This document shows, piece by piece, positions 2,458-49,883 of a stretch of 64,000 bases of DNA. Positions within the stretch are counted from its first letter, which is position 1. Each line of letters begins with the position of its first letter. Made by a program: the position numbers and the translations under genes. The notes below the pieces were generated by a model. That model searched no databases. It saw nothing but the letters and a program-made list of their open reading frames with translations, and had not been told where the DNA came from. This DNA is from Streptomyces globisporus (GTDB lineage Bacteria; Actinomycetota; Actinomycetes; Streptomycetales; Streptomycetaceae), in contig BMTG01000014.1 in the NCBI GenBank assembly GCA_014649555.1, forward strand, positions 140,555 to 204,554, written 5' to 3'.

Positions 2458-3579
2458 ATGGAATTCCGCATCGAGCGCAGTGCCCTGACCGAGGCCGTGT
2501 CCTGGGCGGCCCGCGTCCTGCCCGTGCGCTCCCCCGTCCCCGTGCTGGGCGGACTGCTGCTGGACACGGAAGCCGGGTCCGGGGGCGGGCTGTTGCGCAT
2601 CTCCGGGCTGGACTACGAGGCGTCCGCGCGCATCGACGTGGAGGCCGAGGTCCCGCGGCCCGGAAAGGTGCTCGTCATGGGGCGGCGGCTGCTGGACATC
2701 TGCAAGGTGCTGCCCGACGGCCCCGTGGAGTGCGCGGTGGAGGGGTCACGGTTCACCGTGTCGGGCGACGGGGCCCGGTTCGGCCTCTCCGTGCTGCCGT
2801 TGGACGACTACCCGGCCCTTCCCCCGCTCCCGCAGGTGCGGGGCGCGGTGGACGCGGAGCTGTTCGCGGCGGCGGTGGCCGATGTGGCGGTGGCGGCGGG
2901 GCGCGACGACACGCTGCCCGCGCTCACCGGGATCCGGCTGGGGCTCGACGGCGACACGATGACGCTCGCCGCGACCGACCGCTACCGCTTCGCCGTGCGG
3001 ACCGTCCCGTGGAAGGCGGCCGCGCCCGGCGAGAGCGCCGACGTCCTCGTCTCCGCCCGCCGGCTCACCGAGATCGCCCGCTCGCTGGGCCGCTCCGGTC
3101 TGGTGAGCCTCGCCCTGGACGCCGGTTCGGCGGGCTTCGAGCACGCGGGCATGCGAACCACCGTCCGGCTCCTGGAGGGCCGACTGCCGCGCCACGAGAA
3201 GCTGTTCGCGCTGGAGGACCCGGCCCTGGCGGTGGTGGACCGGGCCCGGCTGGCGGAGGCGGTCAAGCGGGTCTCCGTCGTCGCCGACGGGGACAGCCCG
3301 GTGCAGATGACGTTCTCCCGCGCCGACGCCTCCGTGACGCTCCGGGCGGGCTACGAGGACGACGTGGCCTCCCAGCGGCTTCCGGCCACGCTGGAGGGGG
3401 CCGAGGAGCTGACGGTGGCCTTCAACCCCGCGTATCTGGCGGACGCCCTGGCCTCCTTCACGGGACCGGCCCTGCGGCTCCAGCTGCTGGGGGCGGGCCA
3501 GCGCGCGCTGATCACGGACGGGGCGGGCACGGGCACGCACCGGCATCTGCTGATGTCGGTGCGGCCGCAGTTGGTGTGA
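2458..3579 (+). CDS. DNA polymerase III beta-clamp paralogue (DnaN-like)
   Basis: A 373-residue protein with the three-domain sliding clamp pattern: N-terminal FRIERSALTEAVSWAARVLP, middle LPALTGIRLGLDGDTMTLAATDRYR and a C-terminal domain ending HRHLLMSVRP in place of the usual YLLMPVRL. The length is right for a complete clamp. Essential dnaN normally sits beside dnaA, dnaK-independent of this context, and none of those genes is near, so this is a second, accessory clamp as found in several streptomycetes. It could load on DNA with specialised polymerases or be used in repair; that is inference. A strong ribosome binding site precedes the ATG, and a long hairpin follows the stop. Confidence 0.85.
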   Translation: MEFRIERSALTEAVSWAARVLPVRSPVPVLGGLLLDTEAGSGGGLLRISGLDYEASARIDVEAEVPRPGKVLVMGRRLLDICKVLPDGPVECAVEGSRFTVSGDGARFGLSVLPLDDYPALPPLPQVRGAVDAELFAAAVADVAVAAGRDDTLPALTGIRLGLDGDTMTLAATDRYRFAVRTVPWKAAAPGESADVLVSARRLTEIARSLGRSGLVSLALDAGSAGFEHAGMRTTVRLLEGRLPRHEKLFALEDPALAVVDRARLAEAVKRVSVVADGDSPVQMTFSRADASVTLRAGYEDDVASQRLPATLEGAEELTVAFNPAYLADALASFTGPALRLQLLGAGQRALITDGAGTGTHRHLLMSVRPQLV

Positions 3580-3599
3580 CGGGGGCCGGATGCCGAAAC

Positions 3600-3636
3600 G
3601 GGGGGTGCGCTCCGGCTCGCGCCGGACGCACCCCCC
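3600..3636. terminator. Bidirectional hairpin terminator
   Basis: The left arm GGGGGGTGCG plus TCCGGC pairs with GCCGGA plus CGCACCCCCC around a TCGC loop, with one unpaired base. It lies between the convergent clamp paralogue and first chitinase gene and can serve both. Confidence 0.75.
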
Positions 3637-3676
3637 GCTCGGGTGGGGTTCTCAGGCCCTCACGAGGACCTTCGGG

Positions 3677-4567
3677 TCAGCAGCTCAGGTTCGAGCCGGT
3701 GGTGGTGCCGAGAACCTGGGTGAACTGCGTGAACTTGTCGATCCGGCTCTGGACCTGGGCCGGGTTGCCGCCGTTGCACTCGATCGCGCCGTTGATCGAG
3801 CGGATGGTCTCGCCGAAGCCGGCGTTGTTCACGATGGCGTTGTGGCCGGTCATGGTGCCGGGGCCGGACTGGGTGTTCCAGTACCAGAGGCCGGTCTTCC
3901 AGGCGATGGCGGCGTTCTGCTCGACCAGGTAGGGGTTGTTCAGCAGGTCGATGCCGAGCGCGTCACCGGCGGCCTTGTAGTTGAAGTTCCAGCTCAACTG
4001 GATCGGGCCCTTGCCGTAGTACGCGGACTGGCCGGCCGGGCAGCCGTAGGGCTGGCTCGCGTCGCAGTAGTGCGGGTAGTTCGCCTCGTTGACTTCCTTG
4101 ATGTACACCAGCCCGCCGGTCTCGTGGCTGACGTTGGCGAGGAAGGCGGCCGCCTCGCGCTTCTTGATCTCGTCGCTGCCGGTGTTGGCGAAGGCCGGGT
4201 AGGCGCTGAGGGCGTCGGTCAGGCCCTGGTAGGTGTAGAAGGGGTTCCGGTTCGGGAACATCTGGTTGAACTGGGCCTCGCTGACGACGAATCCGTTGCT
4301 CTGGCCCGGGTCCTCACCGCCCCCGCCGGTGCCGCAGGCGCCCTTGTCGGCCCACACGTCCGACGAACCCGGACGCTCGTTCTGGGTCCACCACTTGGCC
4401 GTGTAGTTACGGCCGTTGTACGAGACCGAGCCACCGTTCGTGTAGACGGCGGAGGAGCTCCAGGCCGTGGCGCAGGTGGCGGCCTGAGCGGTGGCGGCGG
4501 GAAGGACGACGAGCGCCGCGACGACCGCGCCGAGCGCGACCAGCAGGCTCATGACACGTCGGATCAC
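3677..4567 (-). CDS. Family 19 chitinase with N-terminal chitin-binding domain
   Basis: Secreted endochitinase of 296 residues. A signal peptide (MIRRVMSLLVALGAVVAAL, ending near AQA) is followed by a CBM5/12-type chitin-binding module of about 45 residues with the AKWWTQNE motif, a short Gly-rich linker, then a GH19 catalytic domain. SHETGG carries the family's general acid Glu, and NEANYPHYC and LSWNFNYKAAG are conserved GH19 segments. GH19 enzymes cleave chitin with inversion and are common in Streptomyces as ChiF/ChiG-type proteins. GTG at 4567 is the start, with AGGAG nine bases before it. The chitin-inducible promoter element lies directly upstream, and a tandem paralogue follows at 4904-5788. 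Confidence 0.93.
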   Translation of the reverse strand: MIRRVMSLLVALGAVVAALVVLPAATAQAATCATAWSSSAVYTNGGSVSYNGRNYTAKWWTQNERPGSSDVWADKGACGTGGGGEDPGQSNGFVVSEAQFNQMFPNRNPFYTYQGLTDALSAYPAFANTGSDEIKKREAAAFLANVSHETGGLVYIKEVNEANYPHYCDASQPYGCPAGQSAYYGKGPIQLSWNFNYKAAGDALGIDLLNNPYLVEQNAAIAWKTGLWYWNTQSGPGTMTGHNAIVNNAGFGETIRSINGAIECNGGNPAQVQSRIDKFTQFTQVLGTTTGSNLSC

Positions 4568-4642
4568 GTGATCACACTCCTAGGACGCGGCGCGACGTCC
4601 GGCCGTGCGCCGCTGTGGGGGTGCCCGACACTCAAGCGAGGA

Positions 4643-4670
4643 TGGTCTGGACCTGTCAAGGTCTAGACCA
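4643..4670 (-). promoter_or_regulatory. Chitin-responsive promoter: paired 12-bp repeats around TTGACA
   Basis: On the minus strand TGGTCTAGACCT (4670-4659) overlaps a -35-like TTGACA (4659-4654), which runs into AGGTCCAGACCA (4654-4643). A plausible -10 region lies about 17 bases further on. Streptomyces chitinase promoters are known to carry a pair of such 12-bp repeats over the -35 box, needed for chitin induction and glucose repression. The TGGTCTAGACC core also resembles the DasR-responsive element. Both arms are present here. Confidence 0.82.
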
Positions 4671-4903
4671 TCCTCGAAATGAGCGGAGGTCGCGCCGGTG
4701 ACGGACCCCGGCCACCTGCGGCAAGGGCGTCAAGTGCGCTCTCAACAGCCGCTATTCCGGAAGGAGTCCATCCGGATCGCCCGCGGACGGGAGCGGAGGC
4801 GAAAGTAAAATCTTCCGCCCCGCCCACCATGCGGACAGCACTCGCTCCCCCTCCGGACAGCCTCGGGGCGCAGGATCCCCTCCGGGCAGTCCCGGGCGCG
4901 GGC
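4671..4903. other. Intergenic stretch between the two chitinase genes
   Basis: About 230 bases between the promoter of the first chitinase gene and the 3' end of the second. It contains short GC-rich inverted segments but no convincing terminator and no credible gene. Confidence 0.4.
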
Positions 4904-5788
4904 TCAGCAGGTGAGCCCGGACCCCGGGGCCACCCCGACGATGCCGGTGATGCGTTCGTACCGCTCCACCCGCGCGGCCACCGACGCCGGGTTGCCGCCG
5001 TCGCACTCCAGGGCCCCGTTGAGCGAACGGATCGTCTCGCCGAAGCCCGCGCCGCCGACCATCGCATCGTGCGAGGTCATGGTGCCGGGGCCGTTCTGGG
5101 TGTTCCAGTACCAGAGGGCGGTGGCCCAGGCGACGGACGGATCCCGCTCGACCAGCCAGGGATCGTTCAGCAGATCGACCCCGAGGGCGTCCCCGGCGGC
5201 CTTGTAGTTGAAGTTCCAGCTGAACATGATCGGGCCGCGCCCGTAGTAGGCCTCACGCCCCGCCGGGCAGCCGAAGGGCTGGGTGTCGTCGCACTTGCGC
5301 CAGTAGTTGGCCTCGTTGATCTCCTTGACGTACTTCAGCCCCACCGACTCGAAGTCCGCGTGCGTCAGGAACGCCGCCGCTTCCCGGGCCCGCGTCTGCG
5401 GCGTGCCCACGTTGGCGAAGCGCGGGTAGGCGTGGAGCGCGTCGATCAGGCCCTGGTACGTGTAGAAGGGGTCGCGGTCCGGGAAGATCGCGTCGAACTC
5501 CTCCTCGCCGATGACGAAGTCGGAGACCCCTCCCGTACAGGCACCCCGGTCGGCCCAGGCGGACCCGGCGCCCGGATTCTCCCCGCGCGTCCACCACTTG
5601 GCGCTCCAGTTGCGGCCGTGGTGGGAGACGGTGTCCCCGGCGCGGTAGTCGGCCGTGGGGCTGTGGAGCGGCGCGCAGGGCTGGGTGGCGGGCGTGGCGG
5701 CCGAGGCGGCGGGGGCCACCGTGACGAGGACGGCGGCCAGAGCGGCCGGCACGGTCAGGAGCTTCGTGAAGCGGTCGATGCGAGACAG
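4904..5788 (-). CDS. Second family 19 chitinase, divergent paralogue, probable CTG start
   Basis: Same layout as its neighbour: signal peptide ending APAASA, CBM5/12 module with AKWWTRGE, GH19 domain (YGRGPIMFSWNFNYKAAG). Two features are unusual. First, the reading frame has no ATG; GTG at 5752 would give a signal peptide without a basic n-region, whereas CTG at 5788 gives LSRIDRFTKLLT before it and has AAGGAG nine bases upstream, so I extend to CTG. A GTG seven codons further up is out of frame. Second, the HETGG catalytic motif reads FESVG: the Glu is kept but the His and Thr are changed. It may be active with altered specificity, or decaying. Chitinase identity is certain; activity is not. 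Confidence 0.82.
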   Translation of the reverse strand: MSRIDRFTKLLTVPAALAAVLVTVAPAASAATPATQPCAPLHSPTADYRAGDTVSHHGRNWSAKWWTRGENPGAGSAWADRGACTGGVSDFVIGEEEFDAIFPDRDPFYTYQGLIDALHAYPRFANVGTPQTRAREAAAFLTHADFESVGLKYVKEINEANYWRKCDDTQPFGCPAGREAYYGRGPIMFSWNFNYKAAGDALGVDLLNDPWLVERDPSVAWATALWYWNTQNGPGTMTSHDAMVGGAGFGETIRSLNGALECDGGNPASVAARVERYERITGIVGVAPGSGLTC

Positions 5789-5873
5789 AGCGGCTCACTC
5801 CTTCGGCGGGGCACACCGAGCGCCGGAGCGCCCCGGTGGGCCGACATGGGGGGGAGCCACAGCCAAACCGCAT

Positions 5874-5890
5874 TGGTCTGGACCTGTCAA
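5874..5890 (-). promoter_or_regulatory. Partial chitin-type promoter element of second chitinase
   Basis: On the minus strand TTGACA (5890-5885) runs into AGGTCCAGACCA (5885-5874), as in the neighbouring gene's promoter. The upstream partner repeat is missing; GGCGGCGACC stands in its place. Only one of the two repeats is therefore retained. Confidence 0.65.
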
Positions 5891-5913
5891 GGCGGCGACC
5901 GGCCAGGAAAACC

Positions 5914-5961
5914 CGTGGGGCCCGGGATGCGGATCATTCCGATCCGGTCCCGGGCCCCACG
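5914..5961. terminator. Long hairpin terminator downstream of purA
   Basis: CGTGGGGCCCGGGA (5914-5927) pairs perfectly with TCCCGGGCCCCACG (5948-5961), and an inner CGGATC/GATCCG stem tightens the loop. It lies 14 bases beyond the purA stop codon. Confidence 0.85.
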
Positions 5962-5974
5962 GCCGCAGCACCGC

Positions 5975-7258
5975 CTACAGGAACGAGTTGATCTCGATCG
6001 TCTCGGTCCGGCCGGGGCCGACGCCGATCGCGGAGATCGGGGCGCCCGACATCTCCTCCAGGGCCTTCACGTAACCCTGCGCGTTCTTCGGCAGGTCGGA
6101 GAAGGTCTTGGCCTTGGTGATGTCCTCGGACCAGCCCGGGAGGGTCTCGTAGATCGGCTTCGCGTGGTGGAAGTCGGTCTGGTTGTACGGGAGCTCCTCG
6201 ACGCGCTTGCCGTCGATCTCGTACGCCACACAGACCGGGATCCGCTCCCAGCCGGTGAGGACGTCCAGCTTGGTGAGGAAGAAGTCGGTCAGGCCGTTCA
6301 CCCGGGTCGCGTACCGCGCGATCGGGGCGTCGAACCAGCCGCAGCGGCGGTCACGGCCGGTGGTGACACCGCGCTCGCCGCCGATGCGCCGCAGCGCCTC
6401 GCCGTCCTCGTCGAACAGCTCGGTCGGGAACGGACCGGCGCCGACACGCGTCGTATAGGCCTTGAGGATGCCGATGACGCGGCTGATCTTCGTCGGGCCG
6501 ACACCGGCGCCGGTGCAGGCGCCGCCCGCCGTCGGGTTCGACGAGGTGACGAAGGGGTACGTGCCGTGGTCGACGTCGAGCAGGGTGCCCTGGCCGCCCT
6601 CGAAGAGCACGACCTTGCCGTCGTCGATGGCATCGTTCAGGATCAGGGTCGTGTCGGCGACGAACGGCTTGATCTGCTCCGCGTACTGGAGCATGTCCTC
6701 GACGACCTTGCCGGCCTCGATGGCCCGGCGGTTGAAGACCTTGGCCAGGAGCTGGTTCTTCTGCTCCAGGGCCGCCTCCACCTTCTGCTCCAGGATCGAC
6801 TCGTCGTAGAGGTCCTGGACGCGGATCCCCACCCGGTTGATCTTGTCGGCGTACGTCGGGCCGATGCCCCGGCCCGTCGTGCCGATCTTGCGCTTCCCGA
6901 GGAAGCGCTCGGTCACCTTGTCGAGCGTGACGTTGTACGGAGTGATCAAATGAGCGTTGCCGCTGATCAGAAGCTTGGACGTGTCGACGCCTCGCTCGTT
7001 CAGACCGCTCAGCTCGGAGAGCAGGACCGCCGGGTCGACCACGACACCGTTCCCGATGACCGGGGTACAACCCGGCGACAGGATTCCGGAGGGGAGGAGA
7101 TGAAGTGCGTACTTCTGGTCGCCTACGACGACCGTGTGACCGGCGTTGTTACCGCCCTGGTATCGCACGACATAGTCCACGGATCCACCGAGGAGATCGG
7201 TGGCCTTCCCCTTGCCCTCGTCACCCCACTGAGCACCGAGCAGCACAAGTGCGGGCAC
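5975..7258 (-). CDS. purA: Adenylosuccinate synthetase
   Basis: Catalyses the GTP-dependent ligation of aspartate to IMP, the first committed step from IMP to AMP, in the cytoplasm. The 427-residue length is standard. Visible motifs are the N-terminal P-loop-like [32 protein letters not shown], the [16 protein letters not shown] segment, and [11 protein letters not shown] in the GTP-binding C-terminal part. The GTG start at 7258 has GGAAGGGG upstream. It is transcribed alone, divergent from the lipid-kinase-like gene, and ends in a strong hairpin. Confidence 0.98.
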
Positions 7259-29058: not shown

Positions 29059-31650
<2,592 letters not shown>

Positions 31651-31810: not shown

Positions 31811-32212
31811 ATGGCAGACGTACGCAACCCCTCCCCCGAATACGTCGCGTTCTGGCGCGAGAGCCACCTGTCCACGCTGACGACGCCCCGCCCGGACGGC
31901 ACGCCGCACGTGGTGCCGGTCTGTGTGACGTACGACCCGGAGGCCGGGATCGCGCGCGTGATCACCGACGGCGGCAGCCGCAAGGTCGCCCACATCCGCG
32001 CGGCCGGCCCCGACGGGGCGCGCGTGGCCGTCTGCCAGATCGACCGGGCCCGCTGGGCGACCCTGGAGGGCCGCGCTGTGATCCGTACCGAGCCGGAGAC
32101 CGTCAGGGACGCCGAGGCCCGCCACGAGGAGCGCTACGGCCGTCCGCCGCGGATCAACCCGACCCGGGTCGTCATCGAGATCACCCTCGACCGGGCGCTC
32201 GGCAAGGCCTGA
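31811..32212 (+). CDS. PPOX-class (pyridoxamine oxidase-like) flavin/F420-binding protein
   Basis: 133-residue split beta-barrel protein. VAFWRESHLSTLTTPRPDGTP and HVVPVCVTYDPEAGIARVIT are the family's N-terminal strands, and GSRKVAHIRAAGPDGARVAV follows. The Rv1155-like group binds F420 or flavin and reduces small substrates. No strong ribosome binding site precedes the ATG at 31811, so it may be leaderless. It is divergent from clpB, whose HAIR operator lies in the shared region. Confidence 0.85.
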   Translation: MADVRNPSPEYVAFWRESHLSTLTTPRPDGTPHVVPVCVTYDPEAGIARVITDGGSRKVAHIRAAGPDGARVAVCQIDRARWATLEGRAVIRTEPETVRDAEARHEERYGRPPRINPTRVVIEITLDRALGKA

Positions 32213-32325: not shown

Positions 32326-32646
32326 TCAGGCACTGCGGGGGGTGGCGGAAAGGGGTTCTGCGTCGAACAGCTCGTGGTCGCGCTGATCGAGATTGACGAA
32401 GATCATGCCGTACCTGACGGCACAGCGAACCGGCTGCGGGGCGCCGCGGGGCCGACGGAGGCAGCGATAGGCGCGGACGTCCTCGTCCTCTTCCATCACC
32501 ACGACGATCGGCTCTCCGAACAGGGTGACCATCAACGAGTCGCCACGGCGGGGGAGGGCCGTGAGCAGATCGATGAAATGCCACCCTGAGCGATAGGCGG
32601 TTGCCATCTCGCGCCGGAAGGTGCGGTCGTCCGGCGGGGTGCTCAT
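32326..32646 (-). CDS. Small protein resembling a Rieske domain without its His ligands
   Basis: 106 residues. WHFIDLLTALPRRGDSLMVT, LFGEPIVVVMEEDEDVRAYR and YGMIFVNLDQRDHELF match, in order, the N-terminal strands, the first cluster-binding loop and the post-cluster segment of Rieske oxygenases. Where CxH and CxxH should hold a [2Fe-2S] centre, this protein has CLR and CAVR, so the Cys remain but the His are replaced by Arg, and the stretch between them is shortened to about ten residues. It cannot hold a normal Rieske cluster. The start overlaps the stop of the GDIAW-repeat gene (ATGA), so it is translated from the same message. Homology is my inference; the function is unknown. Confidence 0.6.
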   Translation of the reverse strand: MSTPPDDRTFRREMATAYRSGWHFIDLLTALPRRGDSLMVTLFGEPIVVVMEEDEDVRAYRCLRRPRGAPQPVRCAVRYGMIFVNLDQRDHELFDAEPLSATPRSA

Positions 32647-32945
32647 GCGACCGTACGGGCCGGAGCGACCCAAGCGATGTCGCCGTCGGCGGGCGACATC
32701 GACCAGGCGATGTCACTCGGCGCCGCTGCCGGTACGACCCAGGCGATGTCCCCGGGTGCAGCCGCTCCCTCGGCCCCCCAGGCGATGTCTCCGGGCGCAG
32801 CTGCCACTTCGACACCCCAGGCGATGTCCCCGGGAACGGACACCGCCTCGGCACTCGAAGCTATTCCGCTACCGCCCAGCGCACCGAAAGCCACGGCTGC
32901 GACGAACGAGGCGGCAAGCGCCGAGCGAAGCATTCGCTTGTACAT
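32643..32945 (-). CDS. Secreted small protein with five GDIAW repeats
   Basis: About 100 residues. A clear signal peptide (MYKRMLRSALAASFVAAVAF, cleavage near SSAEA) is followed by a mature part that is little more than repeats: P-GDIAW occurs at five places (GDIAW, GDIAW, GDIAW, SDIAW, GDIAW), spaced 11-13 residues apart by Ala/Pro/Val/Glu linkers. At DNA level the units are near-identical CAGGCGATGTC blocks (32671-32828 on the plus strand). ATG at 32945 has GAGGA upstream; a GTG at 32963 is the alternative. It overlaps the Rieske-like gene by ATGA and is divergent from a LuxR-type regulator. I know of no named family. A multi-copy peptide signal or scaffold is the guess. Confidence 0.75.
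   Translation of the reverse strand: MYKRMLRSALAASFVAAVAFGALGGSGIASSAEAVSVPGDIAWGVEVAAAPGDIAWGAEGAAAPGDIAWVVPAAAPSDIAWSMSPADGDIAWVAPARTVA
32665..32830 (-). repeat. GDIAW-coding tandem repeat
   Basis: Five units with the CAGGCGATGTC (or CAAGCGATGTC) core at about 32671, 32704, 32740, 32779 and 32818, so spacing is 33, 36, 39 and 39 bases. All are multiples of three, which keeps the reading frame. Confidence 0.85.
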
Positions 32946-33035
32946 AGTCGGCTTCGTCCTCACTTGTGGATTCTTCTCCCCCGCACATAAGACGATGTCC
33001 TACCTGGGCACTCGAACACCACTGAGTCGATGCAT

Positions 33036-33061
33036 CATGTTCCTGAATGTTCAGGAACATG
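33036..33061. promoter_or_regulatory. Perfect inverted repeat in the divergent control region
   Basis: CATGTTCCTGA, loop ATGT, TCAGGAACATG: 11-bp perfect arms, 12 bases upstream of the regulator's start codon at 33074. This is the right size and place for an operator of the regulator that also covers the divergent GDIAW promoter (start at 32945). Confidence 0.75.
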
Positions 33062-33073
33062 GGGGGTGGAGAT

Positions 33074-34057
33074 ATGCCTACAAGCGACACAAAGCCGACA
33101 CATCCTCACGGGATAACCGAACTATGTGCGGCGGGAGGCAACCTCTACGCCAGTGCGCTGCGTTCCGGCCGCATCGCACGCGCAGAAGTCGCACCAGCAC
33201 CTTGCCTGATGGAGTTCGCCCTACTCCACCCCGATCCCGATGATCCGGAATGGCTCCGGCCCGTACCGCCGTCCGCCGCTCTGGCACAACATCTGCACCC
33301 CATAGAACGCGAGATACAGGAACGGCGACGGCACTCCGTCGAACTGACCGAATCCTTCGAGCCTTTCATGGACATCAGCGCTCAGGATCCGCCGACCACC
33401 CATGCCATAACGGTGCTGGAAGGCGTCAACCGGATCAACGCGGCGCTCGATCTCGCAACAGCGGAGTGCCGCACCGAGGTTCTCACCGTGCAGCCCGGGG
33501 GCGGCCGCAGCGAGGACCGGCTCAGCGAGGCGCTGGAGCGCGGCATGTCCGTGGTGGACCGGGGTGTCAGCATCCGTACGCTCTATCAGCACACCGTGCG
33601 CCACAGTCCCGGCACACTCGCCTACGCGGAGCGCATGGCAGACACACATGTGGAGATCCGGACTCTCGAGGAACTCATCGAGCGCCTGATCATCTTCGAT
33701 CGCACGGTGGCCTTCATCCCCGCACAGGACGACCGCCAAGTCGCCCTGGAGCTCCGCCATCCGGGGCTCGTGGAATACCTGGTGAAAGTCTTCGAACAGC
33801 TCTGGACCCGCGCCGCCCCCCTCATGGAAGAGGTCAAGTACGACCCGACCCCGCAGGGTGTCAGCGGTGTCCAGCGCTCCATCGCACAACTCCTGGTCGA
33901 AGGCCACGTGGATGACTCCATCGCCCGCAGGCTCGGTATGAACGTCCGCACCTGCCGCGCCCATGTGGCCAAGCTCTCCGCCGCCCTGGGCAGCAGCAGC
34001 CGGGCCCAACTCGGCTACCTGATCGCCCGGTCCGGAATCCTCGAATCGGATTCCTGA
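33074..34057 (+). CDS. LuxR-type regulator with TrmB/PLD-like sensory region
   Basis: 327 residues. The C-terminus is a LuxR-type helix-turn-helix (QRSIAQLLVEGHVDDSIARR, RTCRAHVAKLSAALGSSSRA). The middle (about 120-230) resembles the phospholipase-D-like ligand region of TrmB-type regulators (TTHAITVLEGVNRINAAL, VVDRGVSIRTLYQHTVRHSP, LIIFDRTVAFIPAQDD). The N-terminal 90 residues (LYASALRSGRIARAEVAP, PPSAALAQHLHPIEREI) look like a degenerate winged-helix region. ATG 33074 has GGTGGAG in front. It is divergent from the GDIAW operon and followed by a decayed copy of itself. A regulator of the same type is at 48891-49883. Confidence 0.82.
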   Translation: MPTSDTKPTHPHGITELCAAGGNLYASALRSGRIARAEVAPAPCLMEFALLHPDPDDPEWLRPVPPSAALAQHLHPIEREIQERRRHSVELTESFEPFMDISAQDPPTTHAITVLEGVNRINAALDLATAECRTEVLTVQPGGGRSEDRLSEALERGMSVVDRGVSIRTLYQHTVRHSPGTLAYAERMADTHVEIRTLEELIERLIIFDRTVAFIPAQDDRQVALELRHPGLVEYLVKVFEQLWTRAAPLMEEVKYDPTPQGVSGVQRSIAQLLVEGHVDDSIARRLGMNVRTCRAHVAKLSAALGSSSRAQLGYLIARSGILESDS

Positions 34058-34124: not shown

Positions 34125-34228
34125 ACGTCGAGGAAGTTCCCGGCTCCCTCGACGCGTACAGAATCCCCCGGACGCCCACAGTCGTACCACCATCCACTTG
34201 TTGCAGTGCACAAAGCAGGGGGGTACCA

Positions 34229-34680
34229 ATGGGAACAGAAGGCATCGAAACACCCCATCCGCACGCGAACACCGAAGTGTGCGAGCCGGCGTTGCACCTG
34301 TACCGCGAAGCCCTGCACACCGGGCGAGTCGCGCGAGCCGAACTCGGCGCCGTCCCCTGCCTCATCGACATGGCTCTGCTCCACCCCGACCCGTGGGACG
34401 GCCGGTGGATGCGCCCGGTACCGCCTTCGGCCGCCCTGGCCAACGCGCACACGGCCATCCGGCGCGGAACCAGGATCCGGCACATCTACCAGCACCCGGC
34501 CCGGTACAGCAGCTCCGTCAGAAGCTATCTGTCCCAGATACCGGTCCAGCATCTTCAGGTACGCACGACCGAGCCCACATCGCCAAACTCATGCAGGCAC
34601 TCGGCGCCACCAGCCGCACCCACCTCGGCGCACTCCTCGTCCGGTCCGGCATCGTGGAAGCCGACCGGCGCGAGCAGTGA
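34229..34680 (+). pseudogene. Decayed second copy of the LuxR-type regulator
   Basis: Three pieces of the neighbouring regulator remain in order. Piece one (LYREALHTGRVARAELGAVP, LLHPDPWDGRWMRPVPPSAA) matches its first 70 residues. Piece two (GTRIRHIYQHPARYSSSVRS) matches the middle region near VSIRTLYQH. Piece three (RAHIAKLMQALGATSRTHLG, then LLVRSGIVEAD) matches the final helix-turn-helix but lies in another frame. About 100 codons are missing at each junction. The start ATG 34229 still has AGGGGGG upstream. The reading frame of piece one runs on antisense into the ABC permease gene without a natural stop, so a functional product is unlikely. Confidence 0.8.
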
Positions 34681-48890: not shown

Positions 48891-49883
48891 GTGAACGGCG
48901 GAAGCCTGTCCATACTCGGCCTGGACATCACGGAGGAGCGTGCCTACCGGCACTTCCTCCGCAATCCGGGCACCGGCACCGAGGACATCGGGGTGCTCCT
49001 CCACAGCCCTCGTGAGGAGGTGGAGAAGGCCCTCGCCCGCCTCGACGAGCTGGGCCTGCTGCGGACCGACGAGCACGGCGGCGTCTCGGCGGCCGCCCCG
49101 GAGACCGCGGTCGAGCGGCTCACGGAGATCCGGCTGCGCGAGCTGCACGAACAGCTCCACCAGGTCACCAGGTCCCGGCACCTGATCGCCGAGCTGACCG
49201 CCGAACAGCAGACCCGCCCCCTCGCCACGCAGGGCGTCGAGCGTCTTGAGGTGCTCCGGCAGATCCGTGACCGGATCGACGACCTGGCCTTCTTCGCCCG
49301 TCAGGAGATCCTCTCCGTCGAGCCGTACACCGCCCTCACCGCCGAGAACATCGCGCACGCACGCCCCCTGGACACCCGGTGTCTGCGCCGGGGCGTGCAG
49401 ATCCGCAGCGTGGTGCTGCGGGAAGCGCTCGACCATCCGCCGACCGTCGCCTACCTGCGCGAACTCACCGCGCAGGGGGCGTCGATCCGGGCCGCGGACA
49501 AGCTGTCCGAGCGGATCCTCGTGTACGACCGGCGTACGGCCCTGGTGCCCGTCGACCCCTCGGACACCTCGCGCGGCGCGCTGGTCACCCAGCAGGCCGG
49601 TCTGGTCTCCAACATCCTGGCCCTGTTCGAGAAGATCTGGGCCGAGTCGACGGACCTGTCCACCCTGATCGACACCCACGCCTCCCCCTCCGACGTGCTG
49701 TCCGAGATGGAACAGCGCGTCATGGAGGAGATGTGCCGGGTGGCGAAGGACGAGACGGGCGCACGGAATCTGGACATCTCGGTGCGGACGTACCGCCGCC
49801 ATGTCGCCGACGTGCTCCGCATCCTGGGCGCGACCAGCCGCCCGCACGCGGCCCTGCTGGCCCGCGAGCGTGGCTGGATCTGA
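48891..49883 (+). CDS. TrmB/PLD-like LuxR-type regulator
   Basis: 330 residues. The N-terminal winged-helix (LGLDITEERAYRHFLRNPGT, EEVEKALARLDELGLL) is better kept than in the 33074 regulator. The middle effector region shares its pattern (LRRGVQIRSVVLREALDHPP; RILVYDRRTALVPVDP). The C-terminal helix-turn-helix is RTYRRHVADVLRILGATSRP. GTG start with GGGGGGCGG about ten bases before. It is adjacent to the lanthipeptide cluster and could be its pathway regulator; no target is visible from sequence. Confidence 0.8.
   Translation: MNGGSLSILGLDITEERAYRHFLRNPGTGTEDIGVLLHSPREEVEKALARLDELGLLRTDEHGGVSAAAPETAVERLTEIRLRELHEQLHQVTRSRHLIAELTAEQQTRPLATQGVERLEVLRQIRDRIDDLAFFARQEILSVEPYTALTAENIAHARPLDTRCLRRGVQIRSVVLREALDHPPTVAYLRELTAQGASIRAADKLSERILVYDRRTALVPVDPSDTSRGALVTQQAGLVSNILALFEKIWAESTDLSTLIDTHASPSDVLSEMEQRVMEEMCRVAKDETGARNLDISVRTYRRHVADVLRILGATSRPHAALLARERGWI

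Follow-up and report, generated by a model that had tools for sequence, protein, structure and literature searches.

Genes and features at the locus

The window, as we call the whole 64,000-nucleotide stretch of Streptomyces globisporus DNA analysed here, carries on its minus strand at 32643..32945 an ORF for a predicted secreted repeat precursor of 100 aa (ATG at 32945, TGA at 32645-32643) that has kin at 207/207 loci. Residues 1-34 (32844..32945, minus strand) form a predicted Sec signal peptide ending in AEA; it was judged by eye, and the leader is basic, hydrophobic and Sec-like, with an n-region and an h-region resembling those of relatives. Five DIAW units follow on the same strand at 32817..32828, 32778..32789, 32739..32750, 32703..32714 and 32670..32681 (residues 40, 53, 66, 78 and 89 of the precursor), spaced 39, 39, 36 and 33 bp apart. 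The first-pass annotation had described a small secreted protein with five repeats, and the ORF and its units bear this out. Its spacing of 33-39 bp holds as well, but of the pattern P-(G/S)DIAW, given for all five units, the P-(G/S) precedes only four, the fifth reading A-D-G-DIAW. Likewise, the DNA of the units was called nearly identical; this is true of the motif codons (GAC ATC GCC TGG four times, GAC ATC GCT TGG once) but not of the codons flanking the units, which are dissimilar.

An alternative GTG start at 32963 is open too. The conserved element GTGAGGACGAAG is present at 127 loci, and at 12 of these the GTG does not share the reading frame of the precursor; it was therefore dropped and the ATG at 32945 was chosen. 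Searches of Pfam, NCBIfam and PHROGs with the precursor returned no family matches, in agreement with the earlier remark that no described Streptomyces family with this motif was known.

The next gene on the minus strand (32326..32646) encodes a Rieske-like protein of 106 aa, and its ATG overlaps the precursor TGA (ATGA), a spacing found in 125 of 172 distinct loci. Residues 4-68 resemble the N-terminal stretch of a ring-hydroxylating dioxygenase alpha subunit (chain 20-84, profile E 2e-4), and the match to Pfam Rieske scores 12.6 bits, below the cut-off of 20.3. Where the 3NT oxygenase has NVCRHRG this protein has CLRRPRG, so that the ligands C and H stand opposite R and P. The patterns C-x-H and C-x-x-H are absent from its whole sequence, and the C-terminal catalytic domain of Rieske oxygenases is absent from its 106 residues. 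With the ligand residues replaced and the catalytic domain missing, we rejected a working iron-sulphur oxygenase. Its structural model was poor (pLDDT 60.8), and a fold search with this model gave no match below E 0.001, the best (0.03) being a Rieske monooxygenase. The protein is well conserved among 54 sequences, with a mean column identity of 83% and a nearly fixed C-terminal ATPRSA. Next to it lie two conserved neighbours, a PNPOx-family gene (31811..32212, plus strand) and a gene for the ClpB chaperone (29059..31650, minus strand).

On the other side of the precursor, a divergent gene at 33074..34057 (plus strand) encodes a regulator of 327 aa (start codon inferred), which we propose as the receptor and which combines a predicted TrmB/PLD-like sensor with a C-terminal LuxR-type HTH. 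In Pfam the regulator had sub-threshold matches alone, led by DUF7436 and GerE, the latter at 17.7 bits with a cut-off of 23.5; neither an autoinducer-binding (acyl-homoserine-lactone) domain nor TPR repeats were found there at E values up to 1. An AlphaFold2 model built from 61 sequences (pLDDT 79.6, pTM 0.46) matched the folds of archaeal TrmBL2 (E 1e-13), TrmB (5e-7) and the PLD Nuc (7e-7), at query-normalised TM scores of 0.33-0.36. The model begins with helices at 19-47, strands at 51-63 and a long helix at 66-99, and has a recognisable HTH at 265-320. Judged by this model, the regulator appears to have a TrmB/PLD-like effector domain, as in the TrmB family.

Between the precursor and the regulator lies the palindrome GTTCCTGAATGTTCAGGAAC (33039..33058, no strand assigned), a putative operator. 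Its own site is the only exact match in the genome; there is one near-match with one mismatch and there are two with two, and a reversed control pattern has one match. With no second exact match in the genome, the idea that there are many operators found no support. Among 25 Streptomyces within a 41-genome sample, 13 have one exact match each to a slightly wider palindrome pattern and 12 have none; 11 of the 13 matches are placed at the cassette. At some types, for instance some DLAW and DVVW loci, the palindrome is absent in this form and other sequences are present. We take it as a putative local operator, which would mean that the regulator acts chiefly on the cassette to which it belongs.

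Behind the main regulator are remnants of a second copy, an N-terminal part at 34208..34459 and a C-terminal part at 34570..34665, both on the plus strand. Of 119 genomes, many have one or two more regulator copies with open frames at this position, and one such copy is convergent. These extra copies may serve as recombination targets for the exchange of types.

The repeat unit across Streptomyces

A precursor search in 61 genomes revealed relatives with the same leader and other repeat words. The loci compared number 207 (L001-L017, L023-L132 and L133-L212), of which 197 were read by script and ten, which failed the Rieske pattern, by laxer patterns; L018-L022 were excluded as having no Rieske-like gene. 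L001-L017 are biased for the precursor because they were found through it, the remaining loci having been found via the Rieske-like protein. Some loci repeat the same genome and the counts are partly non-independent, so statistics were done on 172 distinct precursor/regulator combinations; L012, L101, L133 and L139 (no leader match), the ten laxer-read loci and duplicates are outside this set. The background count covered every third of 80 named loci, those of at least 12 kb only, plus the window.

A precursor with the leader and a [D/E/N]xxW unit lies directly upstream of the Rieske-like gene, and a homologous regulator is encoded divergently on the opposite strand, at each of the 207 loci. 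Of 150 loci tested, 149 have ClpB within 4 kb downstream, and in 143 the genes follow one another as Rieske-like, PNPOx, ClpB. The Rieske-like protein was matched in 333 of 392 Streptomyces genomes, at E 2e-55 or better in 321; the remaining 12 are weak hits, at E 4e-6 to 3e-17, that may represent different Rieske proteins. In a phylum sample of 396 genomes from 236 genera it occurred in Streptomyces only (11 genomes). The precursor family appears to be present in most Streptomyces species.

The unit is diverse between precursors and uniform within them. There are 36 different tetramers among the 172 distinct precursors, including EPTW (16), DSGW (13), DIGW (13), DITW (12), DSTW (11), DLAW (10), DIAW (9) and EISW (9). 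Precursors contain 1 to 11 units, with a single copy in 29/172. Among the 143 multi-copy precursors, 133 have one tetramer throughout and ten mix tetramers; the middle dipeptide is identical in 1021 of 1034 within-precursor pairs, compared with 5.8% when pairs are drawn at random from different multi-copy precursors. Our choice of ORFs favoured those bearing the motif, and a count made with no prescribed letters served as a control: a 4-mer recurs in 138 of the 172 precursors, and in 133 of them the top-ranking 4-mer fits [D/E/N]xxW. The first-pass annotation had looked to conservation of the pentapeptide in relatives. The five letters GDIAW are not kept there; what persists is a frame, [D/E/N]xxW, in which two positions vary.

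Over the family, uncorrected counts of differences between motif copies of one precursor come to 0.41 per synonymous site, against 0.003 for nonsynonymous sites; for the three codons after the unit the values are 0.28 and 0.50. Since dN is far below dS in the unit, the likeness of the repeats reflects selection on the peptide, the repeats being old and the codons after the unit free. The likeness had been put down to recent copying or selection; selection is retained, and recent copying of DNA was rejected in view of the synonymous divergence between copies.

In 22 of the 172 precursors (e.g., DTVWD, DTRWD, DSAWS) the protein ends exactly one residue past the W, and in none does it end at the W itself. 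Residue W+1 is constant over all copies in only 88 of the 143 multi-copy precursors, and thus does not by itself define the ends of the mature peptide.

A secreted-like, Ala/Pro-rich protein with 1 to 11 repeats might be a structural component of the cell surface or the spore, with repeats that vary under immune-like or phage-driven selection. Single-copy forms, the precursors that end one residue past the motif and the unconstrained codons after the unit do not fit such a protein, which would also leave the co-variation with a cytoplasmic regulator (see below) unexplained; we consider it very unlikely. Still less credible is a Trp-rich attenuator leader peptide, whose TGG codons would sense tryptophan supply on behalf of the Rieske-like gene downstream. 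An attenuator would suit the translational coupling between the two genes and also the W of the unit, although W is there by the definition used. However, the D/E and the middle residues are kept while synonymous sites change freely, a signal peptide is present, and the regulator co-varies with the unit.

Repeat unit and regulator

Alignment of the window with S. globisporus 1912-4Crt (L024), a DLAW type, gave identities of 92-97% per 100-bp step in the left flank, to approximately locus position 3900. Identity drops to 17-80% in the block 4100-6000 (regulator 71%, precursor 48% overall), returns to 95-100% at the first base of the Rieske-like gene, stays there up to 6800, and past 6800 is 85-100% into ClpB, which is 97% identical overall. 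Thus, a block of ~2 kb comprising precursor and regulator is replaced between flanks that are mostly 92-100% identical. S. rubiginosohelvolus (L025), a DITW type, gave a similar picture, with 85-98% in the left flank at 3500-4100, 77% in the regulator, 48% in the precursor, 100% in the Rieske-like gene and 97% in ClpB. Two further exchange pairs are L026/L028 (left flank 97%, regulator 73%, precursor 51%, Rieske 99%, ClpB 96%) and L033/L039 (94%, 74%, 64%, 95% and 95%, respectively). In L024 the regulator frame is in open pieces, from either a broken gene or a sequencing error.

Among 18 close loci (153 pairs, 31 with the same tetramer and 122 with different ones), same-tetramer and different-tetramer pairs are 91.6% and 92.0% identical in ClpB and 95.8% and 95.7% in the Rieske-like gene, whereas the regulators are 88.3% identical in the former and 75.3% in the latter. 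In both sets the left flank varies, with means of 59.4% and 54.0%, and an exchange between two conserved flanks is therefore visible in some pairs only.

The larger set of 172 behaved in the same way. In pairs with a Rieske DNA identity of at least 97%, regulator identity is 0.969 for the 43 same-tetramer pairs and 0.772 for the 106 different-tetramer pairs. The tetramer is shared with the nearest regulator in 134/172 cases and with the nearest Rieske gene in 62/172, and on trees it changes 50 times along the regulator, 99 times along the Rieske gene and ~141 times when shuffled. Within the regulators of Rieske-close, different-tetramer pairs, the greatest change is in sensor residues 151-165 and 181-195 (0.38 and 0.39 of sites) and in the first 15 residues, which lie outside the sensor (0.47, with 0.18 in same-tetramer pairs), and the least (0.13, 0.10) in the HTH at 271-300. 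Variation outside the sensor that follows the tetramer speaks against the pheromone reading.

The Rieske-like gene itself is outside the exchanged block, as are the PNPOx and ClpB genes. Because the Rieske-like protein does not follow the signal type, our guess is that it serves every type alike, as an output or a helper. Beyond a possible output, the pheromone model gives this conserved protein no place.

The genome carries further regulator paralogues. On contig 14 at 18.2 kb (15.5-22.0 kb), a paralogous regulator (2718-3767, minus strand, in the coordinates of locus L281) lies beside a divergent, secreted-like precursor (about 3854-4114, plus strand, same coordinates) that has two DLPWT units and ends in DLPWTR. 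At 30 loci with relatives of this regulator, [D/E/N]xxW with at most two residues after it forms the end of 10 of 26 secreted-like ORFs that are divergent, compared with 0 of 105 other secreted-like ORFs of these loci (p = 1.8e-8). When the starting case and two already known ones are set aside, 7 of 23 remain (p = 2.6e-6). Terminal units include DAGWQ (three times, plus one DAGRQ), DLGWQ, DMGWQ, NISWD and DLSWG, and further ORFs, not included in the count, end in MGWQ, FGWD and ACWE. At 50 loci with distant regulators from other genera, 4 of 48 divergent secreted-like ORFs end in the unit versus 1 of 173 elsewhere (p = 0.008), an ending pattern picked after cases were seen; for the unit anywhere in the ORF there was no enrichment (7/48 versus 21/173, p = 0.41). 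The support that these outgroup regulators' sequences lend to a wider class is modest. A distant regulator paralogue also lies in the window at 49047-49853, with no divergent W-motif ORF recognised beside it.

At the level of sequence, unit and regulator co-vary in the way that signal-receptor types do. Linkage, together with any cause of block exchange, could give the same picture, as in a selfish or freely recombining island where unit and regulator agree without molecular recognition. Such an island would be in keeping with the divergent, neighbouring positions of precursor and regulator at every locus seen, and with the additional regulator copies, a second and a third, that many genomes have next to the locus. 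Against it stand the selection on the motif within the precursor, the HTH that changes least with the tetramer, and independent paralogous pairs with a like unit. We favour recognition over mere linkage because the unit is under selection and the paralogous pairs bear like units, and we think the island very improbable.

We also considered that the product of the precursor is a peptide of narrow spectrum, antimicrobial or RiPP-like, the cassette being a competition locus with a block exchanged through strain conflict. A hypervariable repeated core behind a conserved leader, the block exchange and a conserved partner protein coupled to the precursor could all be accommodated in this way. Nevertheless, the co-varying partner is a DNA-binding regulator, the Rieske-like protein, highly conserved as it is, is without iron-sulphur ligand patterns, and the constrained unit is of four residues only. 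RiPP precursors are expected to have a modifying enzyme nearby, and the annotated neighbours (ClpB, PNPOx, Rieske-like, regulator) include no peptide-modifying enzyme, dedicated transporter or immunity gene. Consequently, an antimicrobial is in our judgement unlikely.

Proposed peptide signalling and known systems

The first-pass annotation had likened the gene to a multi-copy pheromone precursor. This is the best reading of the homogeneity of the unit within precursors and its diversity between them, the purifying selection, the co-segregation and block exchange with the regulator, and the paralogous pairs. We hold it to be probable, with good confidence, that the product of this gene is a multi-copy peptide-pheromone precursor, with the divergent TrmB/LuxR-type protein as its receptor. 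What is shown, and by comparison only, is that the family exists, that its unit is under selection, that unit and regulator are exchanged and vary together, and that many members have the palindrome in common. By analogy, the precursors that end one residue after the W resemble C-terminally matured pro-peptides.

In the proposed mechanism, the precursor would leave the cell through Sec and lose its signal peptide, and extracellular proteases would then release several short peptides centred on [D/E/N]xxW, here GDIAW. An oligopeptide permease would take the peptide back in, where it would bind the TrmB-like sensor of its own regulator, with the constant D and W as anchors and the middle two residues setting the specificity. 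At the palindrome the regulator would adjust the precursor/Rieske-like operon and, by a direct or an indirect route, the production of antibiotics. Genes for a transporter or a protease were not seen next to the cassette. Precedent for peptide uptake by an oligopeptide permease in Streptomyces is the BldK signal, since BldK is reported to import a 655-Da peptide signal in S. coelicolor (PMC9640686). According to the same source, BldKA-C are conserved in 5-10% of strains only, and its authors suggest that different strains possibly use different peptides (PMC9640686). A precursor type with DTHWP, at loci L158 and L169, has a mass of 654.7 Da, near that of the BldK signal; with one of 101 observed pentamers fitting, the match was set aside as uninformative.

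In S. coelicolor, clpB is SCO3661 (PMC2687793). From the conserved gene order, SCO3662, SCO3663 and SCO3664 should therefore be the PNPOx, Rieske-like and regulator genes, and the S. coelicolor receptor should, by position only, be SCO3664, three numbers beyond clpB. Disruption of SCO3664, called a 'regulator', is reported to raise actinorhodin more than 50-fold; in the same study complementation restored 12 of the 16 regulator mutants (PMC6585502). Among openly licensed PMC papers, none was apparent that describes this locus, none was found naming two of SCO3661-3665 together, SCO3660 and SCO3662-3664 taken singly were named in three, and 'GDIAW' occurred in one unrelated paper only.

A wider reading, which we offer tentatively and regard as possible but somewhat short of probable, is that the cassettes constitute a previously undescribed peptide language of the Streptomycetales. 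Cytoplasmic TrmB/LuxR receptors would each read a short W-centred peptide cut from a secreted precursor encoded divergently beside them. The Streptomyces locus would have at least 36 signal types, switch between them by block exchange and control antibiotics (SCO3664), and BldK-type import may serve it. If this is true, a locus in most Streptomyces gives the signal, the receptor and a sequence-only forecast of who talks to whom, and imported peptide signals for Streptomyces development become directly testable with cheap synthetic peptides. If SCO3664 is the S. coelicolor receptor, it would provide a handle on silent antibiotic clusters.

According to a review, signals are typically small molecules in Actinomycetota and oligopeptides in Bacillota (PMC10075063). 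Another account has actinobacterial signalling rely on gamma-butyrolactones and on peptides that are cyclic or modified, and finds it intriguing that LuxR proteins occur there without a known signal (PMC4748050). The regulator differs from LuxR acyl-homoserine-lactone receptors in that GerE is below threshold and no autoinducer-binding domain was found in Pfam at E up to 1. It is most like archaeal TrmB and TrmBL2, the top fold matches of its model. Known TrmB ligands are sugars, and the TrmB structure 2f5t is titled as a sugar-binding domain, whereas we propose a peptide ligand here; moreover, the recognisable HTH of the present regulator is C-terminal and LuxR-like.

In ComQXPA and agr, signal and receptor are exchanged as a block inside conserved flanks, and a Trp is the key residue of ComX. 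These systems have two-component membrane receptors and modified peptides, neither of which was recognised at the Streptomyces cassette. In fungal alpha-factor-type precursors, one short peptide is present several times over behind a signal peptide. The likeness is in the layout of the precursor, with no sequence relation claimed, and those systems are eukaryotic with a GPCR as receptor.

The RRNPP quorum-sensing systems of Bacillota consist of two genes, one for a small secreted pro-peptide and beside it one for a cytoplasmic receptor (PMC10075063). As in RRNPP, the pro-peptide gene here, with secretion predicted from sequence, adjoins the receptor gene at 207/207 loci, in divergent orientation. 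The mature peptide of RRNPP members such as PlcR/PapR, Rap/Phr and Rgg/SHP is short, is often C-terminal and has allelic types. Unlike these, the Streptomyces cassette belongs to Actinomycetota, has divergent genes and up to 11 W-centred units per precursor, and would use a TrmB/PLD-like receptor with a LuxR-type HTH and no TPR. Because the proposed receptor has no TPR match in Pfam, we do not file the cassette as RRNPP, although the two would work alike.
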